A DNA stretch of 64,000 bases from the NCBI GenBank assembly GCA_026625625.1, contig CP113055.1, positions 2,172,501 through 2,236,500 on the forward strand, given 5' to 3'. Under the pieces are notes generated by a model. It had not been told where the DNA came from, did not search any database, and worked only from the letters and a program-made list of their open reading frames with translations. The translations under genes were made by a program, and so were the position numbers. Positions 15,946 to 21,057 of this stretch are shown here, in pieces. Source of the DNA: Blastomonas sp. SL216 (GTDB taxonomy: Bacteria > Pseudomonadota > Alphaproteobacteria > Sphingomonadales > Sphingomonadaceae). Within the stretch, counting starts at the first letter, position 1. Each line of letters starts with the position of its first letter.

Positions 15946-16155
15946 CGTCCAGCCTCTCCTGTCAGGAACCGCCAACGACCCTGACCTGATGGTACCGTAG
16001 CGGAAAAATCCGGTCAAACCATGACCCGCGTCACACCTGGAAAGTCGGCGCAAGACTAAGCCGCGAAGATCGTTCCGGATAGGATATTCCTGCCAGCGCA
16101 TGACGAAAGTTACGTGTCTTTGCAGTTAATTAACCTAAATCCATCACAAGACGCC

Positions 16156-18096
16156 ATGCCTGTCCGCCTACCCCCGTGGTTCCGATTGATGTCAGTCAGC
16201 TCGCGCACCGCGTGGAGCCTGGCGATCGGATTTACCCTGGTGATTGCCGCAACAGCCCTAGTCGCCTTCTGGCAGGAACGCGCGCGAGCGATCGACGAAT
16301 CGCTGGGACGGCTCGACCAGCGCAACAGCAAGGTGGTCGAGGAACTCGCCCAGCGGTTCGACCGGATCGAGAAGACCCAGGCGCGCACGATCGAGCTTTT
16401 CCTGGTCGAGCGGGCCGCGCTCAGCCCGGAAAAGGCGCAGCAGCTGTTCAACGCGCTGTACCCGCGCAGGCCCGATGGGACCCGGCGCAGCACCGATGCG
16501 ATGTTCGAAGGCGGCGCAACGCCGATCGGCATGACCCAGGGGATGGCCGGTTTCATTCCCGCCCGAGCCGACCGCGATCCCGAGGCGGTGCGCGATATCG
16601 TCGCGGCAACGCTCGCGGTCCGAAGGCTGGGCGATGGCAGCCGGTTCGAGCTGGAAAGCCTGTATTATTTCACGCCGCGCAACGAGATCGTGATCTTTGC
16701 CCCCAATCGGGCCGATCGGCTGGAATTCTATCGCCACACGGCGCCTGCCAGCTTCGCCTTTCAGGACCGGGAATTTGCCACGATAGCGACCGTTGCGGCC
16801 AACCCGGCGCGGCAGATGCGCTGCACCGGGCTGCAGTCGCTGATCTCGCTGAAATACCAGGAAGTCTGGACCACCGGCTGCATGACCCCGCTGGACCGCG
16901 ATGCGCGCCATATCGGCACCTTCGGCACGTCGATGCCGCTCGACGAGATCGCCCCGGCGGGACGCTTTGGCGGGTCACAGGAAGAACAGGTCATTCTGAT
17001 CTCGCGCGAGGGGCGGCTGATCTATCACCCCGGCTATACCCGGCAGAACAGCCGCAAGACCGAGGAATATCTCGACATCACCACGACCGATCAGCCCGAG
17101 CTTGCCGCGCTGTGGAAGCTGGTGCGCCAGCATGGTGCCAAGGGCTTTGTCGGGCGGGCACAGGCGCTGAACGGCTATGTCGCGCTGCGCCAGGTGCCGG
17201 GCGCGGGCTGGTATGCGCTGACCGTCAAACCCGAACAGCTGATCATGGCGCGGGCGCTGGCCCCCATCCCCCGCATCGCGGCAATGGCGGCAATCGCGCT
17301 GACGGTCTGCCTGCTGATCGTCACCCTGGTGCTGCGCCAGCTGGTCGCCAAGCCCTTGCGACGGCTGTCGCGCGAAGCCGAGCGGATCACCCGCGAACTG
17401 GCCGCAGAAGCCATGCTGGAAATGCCCGAGAACGAGCGCAGCGGCAACGAGGTAGCGCAGCTCGTCGCCCGGTTCGAGACGATGGCGAGCGCCATCCGCA
17501 CCTCGCATGCCGGGCTGGAGCAGCGCGTCGCCGAACGCACCAGCGCGCTCAACGAGGCGAACGACAAACTGCGCATCCTGTCCGAACTGGACCCGCTGAC
17601 CGGTGTTGCCAACCGGCGCAAGATCATGGCCGAACTGGAAACGCGGCTGGACCGCATGGGCCCCGGCAGTGCGCTGGCGGTGCTGGTGCTGGACGTCGAC
17701 CGGTTCAAGGCGATCAACGATCGGCACGGCCATGTCGCGGGCGATGATGCGCTGCGCGCGCTGGCCACCCGCGTCCAGTCGCTGCTGCGTCCCGGCGATG
17801 CGCTGGGCCGGATGGGCGGCGAGGAATTCATGATCATTCTGGACCGCGCGCGTCCGGTGGTGGCCGACGCGATTGCAGAGCGCGTCCGCGCTGCCATAGC
17901 ACGCCAGCCGTTCCAGGTTCACGGCGACGTGACGCTCAAGATCACCGCTAGCTTTGGCCTCGCCGCATGGGTACCGGGCGACAGCGCCAAGGCGCTCTAT
18001 GCACGGGCCGATGAAGCGCTGTATGAAGCCAAGGCAGCCGGACGCAACTGCGTCATTGCCAGCTTTGCCAGCCAGCACAACCGCAACGCGGCCTGA
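16156..18096 (+). CDS. membrane diguanylate cyclase with extracytoplasmic sensor and HAMP
   Basis: Makes the second messenger c-di-GMP from two GTP. Order: transmembrane helix (~18-38), a ~330-residue periplasmic sensor of Cache type, second helix (~376-397), HAMP linker, short coiled coil (VAERTSALNEANDKLRIL) and a GGDEF domain with RMGGEEF near residue 554, so the active-site signature is intact. RPGD five residues before GGEEF is the inhibitory I-site, so product feedback is likely. No EAL domain. I use the ATG at 16156; a GTG at 16114 would add 14 residues, and neither has a clear ribosome binding site. Confidence 0.9.
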   Translation: MPVRLPPWFRLMSVSSRTAWSLAIGFTLVIAATALVAFWQERARAIDESLGRLDQRNSKVVEELAQRFDRIEKTQARTIELFLVERAALSPEKAQQLFNALYPRRPDGTRRSTDAMFEGGATPIGMTQGMAGFIPARADRDPEAVRDIVAATLAVRRLGDGSRFELESLYYFTPRNEIVIFAPNRADRLEFYRHTAPASFAFQDREFATIATVAANPARQMRCTGLQSLISLKYQEVWTTGCMTPLDRDARHIGTFGTSMPLDEIAPAGRFGGSQEEQVILISREGRLIYHPGYTRQNSRKTEEYLDITTTDQPELAALWKLVRQHGAKGFVGRAQALNGYVALRQVPGAGWYALTVKPEQLIMARALAPIPRIAAMAAIALTVCLLIVTLVLRQLVAKPLRRLSREAERITRELAAEAMLEMPENERSGNEVAQLVARFETMASAIRTSHAGLEQRVAERTSALNEANDKLRILSELDPLTGVANRRKIMAELETRLDRMGPGSALAVLVLDVDRFKAINDRHGHVAGDDALRALATRVQSLLRPGDALGRMGGEEFMIILDRARPVVADAIAERVRAAIARQPFQVHGDVTLKITASFGLAAWVPGDSAKALYARADEALYEAKAAGRNCVIASFASQHNRNAA

Positions 18097-18130: not shown

Positions 18131-18460
18131 TGGTGCGGGCGGGGGGACTCGAACCCCCACGGGCAAAGCCCGACGGATTTTCTTACCCGCCACGGCTTTC
18201 GCCGCCGTCCCAGTCAACGGGACGTTCGGGGTCTGGACTATCCCTTCACCCTGCCCCGCCCAGCCCATCTGCACAGGCCGCTGCGAGGTTTAGGTGCTGC
18301 CCGTCTAGTCTCTACACCTTCCCGGCCTGCCGACCGGGCTTGGCTCGGGATTGCCATCTGACAGGGTTCCCCGAATTTGAGCAGTTCTACGTCGCAGGTT
18401 TCCCCGCGCGCACTCACATGATGTTCAAGTCCGTTGCGTCTACCATTTCGCCACGCCCGC
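18131..18460 (-). tRNA. tRNA-Leu(UAA), interrupted by a group I intron
   Basis: Read on the minus strand, the 5' exon is 18460-18427 (34 nt, GCGGGCG acceptor strand to U34) and the 3' exon is 18181-18131 (51 nt, ending in encoded CCA). Joined, they give an 85-nt type II tRNA: acceptor GCGGGCG/CGCCCGC, D-arm with AAATGGTAGA, anticodon arm ACGGA-CTTAAAA-TCCGT, long variable arm CGGGCTTTGCCCG, T-arm GGGGGTTCGAGTCCCCC. The anticodon UAA appears only after removal of the 245-nt insert between U34 and A35, so function depends on splicing. Confidence 0.93.
18182..18426 (-). ncRNA. group I intron (IC3-like) in tRNA-Leu(UAA)
   Basis: The 245-nt insert follows the U34 of the anticodon and ends in G, as group I introns do. 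Visible parts, in RNA sense: CUGCGA...UCGCAG (P3), AAUUCGGGGAACCC (Q region), hairpin CCCGG/CCGGG (P6), GACUAGACGG (R region) pairing GACUA with UAGUC of GAUAGUCC (P7, S region), a GGGACG/CGUCCC hairpin (P9) and a GAAA tetraloop stem CGGC/GCCG. GAGU near nucleotide 12 can pair with exon ACUU and gives the U-G wobble of P1. There is no open frame for a homing endonuclease, so it is a ribozyme-only intron. Confidence 0.9.
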
Positions 18461-18544: not shown

Positions 18545-18826
18545 TCAATCCGCGTTGAGGCGGGCGCGCATTTCCTTGCCGGGCTTGAAATAGGGCACGC
18601 GCTTGGCGGGAACGTCCACCGCTTCGCCGGTGCGCGGGTTGCGCCCCTTGCGTGGCTCGCGGGCGCGGGTGGAAAAGGCACCGAAGCCGCGCAGCTCGAC
18701 CCTGCCCCCCTCGGCCAGGCGATCGATGATGTTGTCGAAGAAGATATCGAGGATCTTTTCGATCTCGTCCGGCCGCAACCCTGGATTTTCTTCCGCCAGA
18801 AGCTGCAGCAGCTCAGATCGTATCAT
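18545..18826 (-). CDS. ihfB: integration host factor subunit beta
   Basis: A 93-residue HU/IHF-family DNA-bending protein; with IhfA it shapes promoters, origins and recombination sites. It shows [45 protein letters not shown] split over the DNA-binding arm and [11 protein letters not shown]. The FKPGKEMR end and the position after rpsA identify the beta subunit. AGGAGA lies eight bases before the ATG at 18826. A 318-bp gap with a terminator separates it from rpsA, so it probably has its own promoter. Confidence 0.93.
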
Positions 18827-19144
18827 GGCCAATCTCCTGCAATCGATTACACGACGGGATGCTAGGGCGCGGCGTCCCTCACACCCCACCCAACAATCAA
18901 TTGACCAGCCCCCCGACAAGCCAATGCGCCTGACCCGTAAAACGGAAACGCAGATGCCAGTGCCTGACCGCTGTCTCCAGAAATCAGGCAGTCAAATGCT
19001 GCCCGAAATCGTGATTGGTTTCAACGATGTTCTTGGCACAACTGCCGAACTTAGCGCCAGATTGCACAAAAAAGGGCACCGGCGGAACGCCGATGCCCCT
19101 TTTTGAAACGTCACCCGTGCTCGCGCAGGGGCGAAGGCTTGCGA
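18827..19144. other. ihfB upstream region, no gene
   Basis: This 318-bp gap holds the rpsA terminator at its right end and presumably the ihfB promoter on the minus strand. I see no convincing open frame or RNA gene in the rest of it. Confidence 0.5.
19068..19104 (-). terminator. rho-independent terminator after rpsA
   Basis: On the minus strand GGGCATCGGCG pairs with CGCCGGTGCCC around a short TTC loop, followed by TTTTTT and preceded by AAAAA. It begins 41 bases after the rpsA stop codon. The symmetry with A- and T-runs would let it work in both directions. Confidence 0.88.
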
Positions 19145-20857
19145 TCAGTCCTCGCGCTGCTTGAGCGCGGCACCCAGGATGTCGCCCAGCGACGCACCCG
19201 AATCGGACGAACCGTATTGCGCCACAGCCTGCTTTTCTTCAGCCAGCTGGTGTGCCTTGACCGAGAAGGTCGGCTTGCGCGAACGGTCGAAACCGGTGAC
19301 CATGGCATCGAGCTTCTGGCCAACCTGGAAGCGATCCGGACGCTGTTCGTCGCGGTCACGGCCCAGATCGTTGCGCTTGATGAAGCCGGTCGCGCCGTCT
19401 TCGCCCACCTGGACTTCCAGGCCGCCGTCGCGCACTTCAAGCACGGTGACGGTGACGACTTCGTTCTTGCGCAGGCTGGAGCTGTCCGCACCGCCCATGG
19501 CAGGCGCACCCTTTTCGAGCTGCTTCATGCCCAGCGAAATGCGCTCCTTCTCGACATCGACGTCGAGAACGATCGCCTTCACCTGCTCACCCTTGAGGTG
19601 CAGGTTGAGCGCGTCTTCACCCGAAATGCCCCAGGCGATGTCCGACATGTGAACCATGCCGTCGACGTCGCCATCCAGGCCGATGAACAGACCGAATTCG
19701 GTCGCGTTCTTGACTTCGCCCTCGACGACGCTGCCCACCGGGTGCTTTTCTGCAAAGGCATCCCAGGGGTTCGACTGCGCCTGCTTGAGGCCCAGCGAAA
19801 TGCGGCGCTTTTCGGCGTCGACTTCCAGAACGATGACATCGACTTCCTGGCTGGTCGAAACGATCTTGCCGGGGTGGACGTTCTTCTTGGTCCACGACAT
19901 TTCCGAAACGTGCACCAGGCCTTCGATGCCCGGCTCCAGCTCGACGAACGCACCATATTCGGTGATGTTGGTGACAGCACCGGTGAGCTTCGCGCCAACC
20001 GGATACTTGACGCTGGCGCCTTCCCACGGATCGCTTTCCAGCTGCTTCATGCCCAGCGAGATGCGCTGCGTATCCTGGTTGATACGGATGATCTGCACCT
20101 TGACGGTTTCGCCAATGGTGATCGCTTCGCTCGGGTGGTTGATGCGCTTGTAGCTGATGTCGGTGACGTGCAGCAGGCCATCGATGCCGCCCAGGTCAAC
20201 GAACGCACCGTAATCGGTGATGTTCTTGACGACGCCGTCGATGATCTGGCCTTCAGCCAGCGACTGGATGAGGCCGGTGCGCTGTTCGGCACGGGTTTCT
20301 TCCAGAACGGCACGACGCGAGACAACGATATTGCCGCGACGACGGTCCATCTTGAGGATCTGGAACGGCTGCGGAATGTCCATCAGCGGGGTGACGTCGC
20401 GCACGGGGCGGATGTCCACCTGGCTGCCGGGCAGGAAAGCAACGGCGCCGTCGAGGTCGACGGTGAAGCCGCCCTTGACGCGGCCGAAGATCACGCCTTC
20501 GACGCGCTTGCCTTCGCCGAATTCATTTTCCAGCTTGTCCCATGCGGCTTCGCGGCGTGCGCGGTCGCGCGACAGCATCGCTTCGCCATCGGCATTCTCG
20601 ATGCGGTCGACATAGACTTCGACTTCGTCACCGACCTTCAGGCCGTGGTCCTGACCGGGGGCGGCGAATTCGCGCAGCGCCACGCGGCCTTCCGACTTCA
20701 GACCGACGTCGATGACGGCCTTGTCGTTTTCAATAGCGGTGACCGTGCCCTTGACGACGCGGCCTTCGAATCCGCCGTCAACGGCAGCAGTGCCGCCCAG
20801 CGATTCGTCGAGAAGTGCCGCAAAATCATCGCGGCTGGGAAATGCCGTAGAGGCCAT
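19145..20857 (-). CDS. rpsA: 30S ribosomal protein S1
   Basis: S1 binds mRNA and helps the 30S subunit start translation. The 570-residue protein has six S1 (OB-fold) domains; the repeated signature is visible as NITDYGAFVDLGGIDGLLHV, NITEYGAFVELEPGIEGLVH and NATEFGLFIGLDGDVDGMVH, each ending in RISLGMKQ or RISLGLKQ. The ATG at 20857 gives MASTAFPSRDDFAALLDESL; the longer frame upstream is not S1-like. There is no good Shine-Dalgarno, as is usual for S1 mRNAs, which are autoregulated. It lies between cmk and ihfB, the classic order, after a 200-bp leader. Confidence 0.96.
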   Translation of the reverse strand: MASTAFPSRDDFAALLDESLGGTAAVDGGFEGRVVKGTVTAIENDKAVIDVGLKSEGRVALREFAAPGQDHGLKVGDEVEVYVDRIENADGEAMLSRDRARREAAWDKLENEFGEGKRVEGVIFGRVKGGFTVDLDGAVAFLPGSQVDIRPVRDVTPLMDIPQPFQILKMDRRRGNIVVSRRAVLEETRAEQRTGLIQSLAEGQIIDGVVKNITDYGAFVDLGGIDGLLHVTDISYKRINHPSEAITIGETVKVQIIRINQDTQRISLGMKQLESDPWEGASVKYPVGAKLTGAVTNITEYGAFVELEPGIEGLVHVSEMSWTKKNVHPGKIVSTSQEVDVIVLEVDAEKRRISLGLKQAQSNPWDAFAEKHPVGSVVEGEVKNATEFGLFIGLDGDVDGMVHMSDIAWGISGEDALNLHLKGEQVKAIVLDVDVEKERISLGMKQLEKGAPAMGGADSSSLRKNEVVTVTVLEVRDGGLEVQVGEDGATGFIKRNDLGRDRDEQRPDRFQVGQKLDAMVTGFDRSRKPTFSVKAHQLAEEKQAVAQYGSSDSGASLGDILGAALKQRED

Positions 20858-21057
20858 AAATCCAACGTTCCTTAAACAGTTTTGTCCGGCCAGCCGGTTG
20901 TCTCCGGCGGTCTTGGCCCAACCTGCCCCCCGGGCCGAATGCACCGGAAAGCGCCCGAAAAGCGCATGTTACAGGCACAACAGGCAGATATGCGAAAAGC
21001 GCGAACGCTCGCCCGGACCGCTTGCGGCGCGTGCGATGTTCACGATGATCGAAACAT

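Follow-up and report, generated by a model that had tools for sequence, protein, structure and literature searches.

The question raised by this locus is whether a tRNA-Leu(UAA) gene that is interrupted within its anticodon loop can still give a tRNA and, if it can, where the interrupting sequence came from. The window analyzed here is a stretch of 64,000 nucleotides from the genome of Blastomonas sp. SL216. Our results suggest that the insert is very probably a resident, ribozyme-only group I intron, that no tRNA-Leu(UAA) gene other than its host was found in this sphingomonad genome, and that it would splice by a route predicted from its guide sequence and P7. The gene and its surroundings are laid out as follows.

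18460-18131, minus strand: split tRNA-Leu(UAA) gene (ARAGORN with introns, sequence)
18427-18460, minus strand: 5′ exon of tRNA-Leu(UAA), ending ...CGGACTT (U33 U34) (ARAGORN with introns, sequence)
18182-18426, minus strand: group I intron of 245 nt inserted between U34 and A35, with G as its last base (ARAGORN, Rfam, our covariance model R1, sequence)
18131-18181, minus strand: 3′ exon of tRNA-Leu(UAA), which begins AAAATCCG and encodes the CCA (ARAGORN, sequence)
18545-18919, minus strand: gene for an HU/IHF-type DNA-binding protein, the upstream neighbor (Pfam PF00216; lies within the stretch aligned to two intronless species)
19145-20944, minus strand: gene with six S1 domains, next upstream (Pfam PF00575; its 3′ part aligns to intronless species)
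16114-18096, plus strand: gene for a GGDEF protein, downstream and convergent (Pfam PF00990)

The gene at 19145-20944 is presumably that of ribosomal protein S1. A scan for consensus promoters upstream of the split gene found no site. When ARAGORN was run without introns it missed the split gene and called only a tRNA-Ala within the window; with introns allowed it placed a tRNA-Leu(taa) at exactly 18460-18131 with a 245-nt intron after position 34, and the joined exons fold into a complete 85-nt tRNA-Leu(taa) with an encoded CCA. The exon coordinates of the preliminary description, and its 245-nt insert after U34 ending in G, were correct to the base. On the minus strand the intron begins GAAC and ends GGGTAAG. 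According to the paper that describes it, tRNAscan-SE 2.0 was not built for the detection of self-splicing group I introns (PMC8450103). Finders of tRNA genes can pass over split genes of this kind, as ARAGORN does without its intron option, and because of this the genome would seem to lack a needed tRNA.

The assignment of the insert to the group I introns, as first proposed, holds. Rfam model RF00028 (Intron_gpI) matches the window at 18436-18225 over its full model length with 44.9 bits (E 3.6e-10), a score below the gathering score of 50. As RF00028 missed the intron at gathering thresholds, we used it in E-value mode together with R1, a covariance model of our own. The intron is the sole RF00028 match at E 0.001 in the genome, which is one contig of 3.86 Mb. 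The elements of the core and the guide are located at the following positions.

18224-18388, minus strand: catalytic core from P3 to P7 (model R1, 151.7 bits, with the window's own intron in the R1 seed)
18379-18384, minus strand: 5′ strand of P3, CUGCUC (17-row alignment)
18297-18302, minus strand: 3′ strand of P3, GGGCAG (four of six pairs with changes on both sides)
18306-18310, minus strand: 5′ strand of P7, GACUA (17-row alignment)
18236-18240, minus strand: 3′ strand of P7, UAGUC (outer pair AU in 14, GC in 2 and UA in 1 of 17 rows; the other four pairs invariant)
18412-18415, minus strand: guide sequence GAGU (P1), which pairs with exon ACUU and sets U34 opposite G

The helices were tested on 17 tRNA-hosted introns of one family, the window's included, aligned over the core, and eight helices were counted, namely P3, P4, P5, P6, P6a, P7 and P8 in two parts. 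Pairing is present in 96.8% of 593 cells as compared with 28-46% in slid versions, a comparison that favors the structure because it was drawn from the same 17 sequences. Changes on both sides occur in 15 of 35 pairs against 6.9 in shuffles, none of the 500 shuffles being as high. Standard pairs make up 100% of P3 and P7, where double-sided changes are found at 4/6 and 1/5 pairs respectively, and P3, P6a, P7, P8 and inner P5 keep their pairing through double-sided changes. P4 and P6 are invariant in the 17 introns and so are neutral as evidence, and the outer P5 pair is unsupported since it holds 14 of the 19 unpaired cells. The unconstrained fold of the pre-tRNA has a z of -3.5, such a fold being unable to hold the P3/P7 pseudoknot.

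At the splice sites there is a U at 18427, a guide G at 18415 and a terminal G at 18182. In the predicted route, the guide GAGU would pair with exon ACUU in the pre-tRNA and place U34 opposite G; a guanosine bound in P7 would attack after U34, the freed U34 would then attack after the terminal G, and the exons would join into a UAA anticodon loop as the intron leaves. A simple rule recognizes a guide, GAGT or GGGT, in 107 of 129 trnL(UAA) rows, including that of the window, and the 22 rows without one are 12 cyanobacterial and 10 others. In a relative hosted by tRNA-Lys(UUU), L061, the guide read by eye is GAAG, and since it faces CUUU, guide and target change together. Removal of the insert by a protein splicing endonuclease, as for archaeal tRNA introns, would fit its position in the anticodon loop; the complete group I core, in which P3, P7 and P8 covary, the U before the 5′ site and the terminal G all speak against this, and we give such an explanation practically no credence. 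From the tRNA host and the core motifs we take the intron to be of subgroup IC3. Its longest stop-free stretch is one whole frame of 81 codons, which is too short for a homing endonuclease. By its length of 245 nt the intron appears to have no room for such an enzyme, in agreement with the ribozyme-only state noted at the outset.

Whether the cell needs this gene depends on the rest of the genome. The covariance model finds 41 other tRNA genes, whose Leu anticodons are CAA, TAG, CAG and GAG, and no second tRNA-Leu(UAA), intact or otherwise, was found in the genome by the covariance model, by a search with the spliced gene or by a search for the anticodon arm; this was a check that the preliminary description had called for. 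The absence is likely rather than certain because the list from the model search does not contain Ile-GAU and Ala-UGC, both of which are expected in rRNA operons. The anticodon-arm search does recover an unsplit trnL(UAA) where one is present, for example in G149, whose intron is in a tRNA-Lys, and in the control genomes G058, G060 and G062 an unsplit trnL(UAA) was found and no intron match was seen. A tRNA-Leu pattern too long by one base for this gene matched three other Leu tRNAs of the genome and a chance site with three mismatches, and was discarded. In 42 GC3-rich ORFs of the window, some of which may be spurious, UUA accounts for 6 of 1,545 leucine codons, so the codon is rare but used, and because this tRNA is the only reader of UUA that was found it would depend on splicing. 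As a separate observation, G012 has an intron-bearing trnL(UAA) (L055) and two unsplit-looking tRNA-Leu(UAA) anticodon arms, at G012:C13:28850 and G012:C52:70571.

The Rfam score below the curated cut-off is what one might expect if the gene were a decayed or non-functional copy whose insert no longer splices. We consider this very improbable: the exons, once joined, match the unsplit genes of two congeners at 98-99% identity, the core shows both conservation and covariation, and the genome searches turned up no other tRNA-Leu(UAA). The pattern of the sequence indicates instead that this is a real group I intron, probably active, in a tRNA gene that is probably needed.

The two congeners make the genus a natural experiment, with both alleles, split and unsplit, at one locus. 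Among nine genomes, our own included, trnL(UAA) is split in seven and unsplit in two (G579 = L216 and G095 = L217) at the same locus. The alignment of the window with G579 and G095 runs from 19961 to 18424, taking in the S1-protein and HU/IHF genes upstream, and then resumes at 18181, and the sequence of the unsplit congeners is uninterrupted through CGGACTTAAAATCCG. In a tree of the upstream flanks (0.8-1.5 kb), which has one outgroup, a further intended one, L052, having been left out, G579, G095 and G583 form a clade with support of 1.0. The deeper forks are weak (0.19-0.63), with the exception of the one uniting this clade with G157 and G582 (0.996). G583 thus carries an intron inside a clade otherwise without one, and it is a different intron: in the FastTree tree its neighbor is L056 (the G583 intron being L219; support 0.73), and the introns of the other six congeners group with L055 and L062 (support 0.90). 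The simplest reading is that the intron was lost within the genus and that there was one later gain, of another sort, in G583.

The preliminary description had set a trnL(UAA) intron in a sphingomonad against the better-known alphaproteobacterial introns of tRNA-Arg(CCU) and had taken it to bear on intron transfer versus ancient descent; wider searches show that such an intron is not exceptional. RF00028 matches were obtained in 18 of 199 genomes of the family; of these 21 matches, 17 are tRNA-hosted, 16 by trnL(UAA) and one by trnK(UUU). With R1, matches were present in 49/385 genomes of the class, 41/398 of the phylum and 20/396 of the order; these counts take in our own genome and were made with filters by which weak matches are lost. 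A pattern scan of named genomes gave at least 118 stretches, many of them from metagenome bins by title, and among the matches listed the titles include Alpha-, Beta- and Gammaproteobacteria, Acidobacteriota, Binatota, Actinomycetota, Bacteroidota, Chloroflexota, Cyanobacteriota and others. From the 207 rows of the alignment, 199 distinct introns were kept, with L136, L150, L246, L276, L284, L286 and the window (twice) taken out as identical or gappy. Their hosts are Leu(UAA) in 129, Arg(CCU) in 28, Lys(UUU) in 9, Arg(UCU) in 5, Lys(CUU) in 4, Ile or Met(CAU) in 4, Thr(GGU) in 3 and Thr(UGU) in 1, with 16 rows unlabeled. Leu(UAA) is thus the host of 129 of the 183 assigned introns, in a sample that is biased because the model and the pattern were built around the window's intron type. 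Such introns are frequent in Alphaproteobacteria, and the window's intron is ordinary as a class. No account in print of a trnL(UAA) intron from Alphaproteobacteria was found in a search of mostly open-access literature that included passages of PMC4033280, PMC8450103, PMC3984707, PMC11835236 and PMC6125680.

Hosts were assigned by the rule that the exon ends in T and the intron in G, which 134 of 165 rows passed, scripted labels later reaching 178. For 12 loci the host was set by hand (L095, L136, L137, L142, L147, L163, L168, L263, L264, L267, L273 and L277), and the taxon names of the tree rows were entered from record titles. The flanks of 15 of the 16 unlabeled rows, and of L286, were viewed; most read as tRNA genes, some of which end at contig ends or runs of N. 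The ARAGORN hosts Phe for L055, Ser for L059 and Thr for L061 were border artifacts, for which the T/G rule gives Leu(UAA), Leu(UAA) and Lys(UUU).

The same core family also occurs in Lys(UUU), after position 35 in L061, L280 and L282 and after 34 in L114, L166, L170 and L207 (Microbacterium), in Lys(CUU) (L081, L089 and L134), in Thr(GGU) (L102, L126 and L211), in Thr(UGU) (L125) and, after 34, in Arg(UCU) (L182 and L185). At L133 3002-3164, as read by eye, an intron of this kind splits a tRNA-Leu(CAA) gene after U33. Three genomes of genus g24, each of 2.1 Mb, have a second RF00028 match of 330-382 nt with no tRNA called (L065, L066 and L067 in G170, G109 and G024), which by eye interrupts a phage-like-looking ORF, and at L064 1501-1661 RF00028 matches weakly (26 bits), with a possible ORF in the interior. 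We take the sequence before the L064 match to resemble a phage DNA polymerase.

The gene and the site are those of the cyanobacterial and plastid trnL(UAA) intron, as had been pointed out: in the 12 cyanobacterial loci compared and in the window the insertion is after U34. The two sorts of intron are also alike in size range, in being RNA-only and in the architecture of the core. This likeness invites the explanation that the window's intron is a direct relative of the cyanobacterial one, by common descent or by transfer. The core of the window's intron, however, has a mean identity of 0.70 (0.67-0.74) with the 12 cyanobacterial trnL introns, on average the lowest of any host group; trnL introns from non-sphingomonads average 0.84 and those of trnK, trnR, trnT and trnI 0.75-0.83, although the ranges overlap, the lowest Arg(CCU) intron being at 66% and the highest cyanobacterial one at 74%. 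The cyanobacterial introns end AGAATG or AGGATG and the window's GGTAAG, and none of the 12 has a guide by the simple GAGT/GGGT rule, whereas the window's intron does. The 12 form one branch with support of 1.0 in a FastTree tree of 199 rows, and eight cyanobacterial rows form one long, separate branch (100/99) in an IQ-TREE tree of 77 rows whose bootstrap had not settled.

The phylogeny against cyanobacterial trnL that the preliminary description had asked for was divided in its outcome: the branch is separate in both trees, and the AU tests depend on the columns used. On the core alone (131 columns) a single trnL group that includes the cyanobacteria is not rejected (p 0.69), nor is a group of the cyanobacteria with the main sphingomonad type (p 0.53). 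With 34 columns around P2 added, both groupings are rejected (p 0.011 and p 0.008, respectively); the extension consists of P2 only, because the P9 segment was recognized in 35 of the 77 rows and its columns were dropped. The P2 alignment may be noisy, since with it the main sphingomonad type is itself rejected as a clade (p 0.009) and the six congeners nearly so (p 0.066). A single clade of all tested sphingomonad trnL introns is rejected with p 0.03 on the core and p 1.2e-5 with P2. A second sphingomonad type (L057, L063, L105 and L281), unlike that of the window, groups with introns of Rhodobacterales and Rhizobiales in the FastTree tree; it was defined after that tree had been seen, so its AU p-values are not strict. 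As judged from these sequences, the shared site does not by itself establish shared descent with the cyanobacterial lineage, and the core alone is compatible with it. Weighing the identical gene and position, the similar length and core motifs and the AU result on the core against the low identity, the long branch and the rejection with P2, we think direct kinship with the cyanobacterial intron unlikely.

The preferred reading is that the window's intron would descend from a pool of tRNA introns common to Alphaproteobacteria, Acidobacteriota, Binatota and others, apart from the cyanobacterial trnL branch. The trnL(UAA) introns of other sphingomonads, Rhizobiales, Rhodobacterales, Acidobacteriota and Binatota have host and site in common with it, with core identities of up to 98% within the genus and, among labeled rows, 92% outside the sphingomonads. 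Alphaproteobacterial tRNA-Arg(CCU) introns share its core family, with core identities of 66-85% (mean 79%), and differ in being inserted after position 36 of another tRNA. The Azoarcus pre-tRNA-Ile intron has a host with a CAU anticodon and an insertion position different from that of the window's intron. It is similar in being a small tRNA intron in Pseudomonadota and dissimilar in its host tRNA. The structure of the Azoarcus intron has been solved, according to PMC3984707.

The surroundings of some relatives make the movement of endonuclease-free tRNA introns a testable question. At 5 of 205 loci a regex search detected, 193-231 bp upstream of the gene with the intron, the 5′ half of a broken tRNA-Leu gene, and the missing 3′ half was found in three of the five genomes (G129, G1227 and G1228), at 80.9, 34.6 and 58.3 kb downstream respectively. 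In the other two, the genomes of L105 and L123, no displaced 3′ half was recognized. The three intervals are the following islands.

G129:C2:83000-167000 (L309-L313): island of 80.9 kb, in a genome of the window's family
G1227 (L314-L315): island of 34.6 kb, in a Bradyrhizobiaceae MAG (L103)
G1228 (L308, L316-L318): island of 58.3 kb, in Enterovirga (L131)

The ends of each island share exactly 7 bp, CTTAAAA, which is the anticodon loop, and in all three an intact native tRNA-Leu(UAA) is read once the flanks are joined and none from the separate halves. The start of an intron-bearing trnL(UAA) lies 164-200 bp in from the left end, and a gene for a tyrosine integrase adjoins the displaced 3′ half at the right end, in 3/3 islands. 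The host is Leu(UAA) for L103, L131 and L281; calls of Ser and Phe for the island genes of G1227 and G1228 were border artifacts, L103 and L131 being Leu(UAA) by the T/G rule. An island that splits the native trnL(UAA) also supplies a replacement gene, and the intron of this replacement interrupts the integration core itself. Such islands represent a concrete vehicle for endonuclease-free tRNA introns, and give a testable reason for the anticodon-loop position of tRNA introns. The integrases of G1227 and G1228 carry PF00589 with PF13356, and the G129 protein shares 57% identity with the G1227 one across 376 residues. Relatives of the island integrase are present in 43 of 385 genomes of the class at E 1e-60, and 18 of the 30 loci of related integrases that were viewed (L319-L348) lie near 3′ portions of tRNA genes, portions that by eye start in the anticodon loop of Met/Ile CAU, Lys, Arg, Leu CAA, Thr and Asn tRNAs. 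This integrase family seems to target the anticodon loops of many tRNAs.

These islands suggest how proteobacterial trnL(UAA) anticodon-loop introns could have spread, namely within replacement tRNA genes on integrative elements, where they would be favored because the intron splits the 7-bp core between CTT and AAAA so that neither the replacement gene nor any later carrier of the intron could be a target; the window's intron, whose position is precisely between CTT and AAAA, would then be a resident outcome of this process. We put this forward tentatively and hold it to be rather unlikely. No island is present at the window's trnL(UAA), whose flanks are syntenic with the empty sites, and a close homologue of the G129 integrase was found in 1 of 189 genomes of the family, G129 itself; for both of these reasons the link from the islands to the window's intron is one that we infer.

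Genes of this kind are also carried by plasmids. The window gene matched 1,279 plasmid records at 60-80% identity. The gene on pCTX-M3 (L349 5001-5299) shows 92% identity with the island-borne L131 gene across 353 bp and 84% with the L103 island across 472 bp, the latter similarity beginning at the left end of the island. ARAGORN's label of "tRNA-Stop" for the L349 gene was a border artifact, and by eye it is Leu(UAA). The pCTX-M3 gene in turn matches 1,280 plasmid records, 1,273 of them at ≥99% identity and 1,257 with ≥80% covered, and the carriers are mostly Enterobacterales and Acinetobacter. In 3/3 opened records of this type (L349 5001-5299, and L352 and L353 3501-3799) it stands beside aac(3)-IId and the gene for an AAA ATPase, and the intron-bearing trnL(UAA) may point to the source of that plasmid segment. 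Phage records gave only partial matches, in six records. A different intron-bearing trnL(UAA) is present at L350 5001-5290, near trb genes on a conjugative plasmid of Bradyrhizobium.
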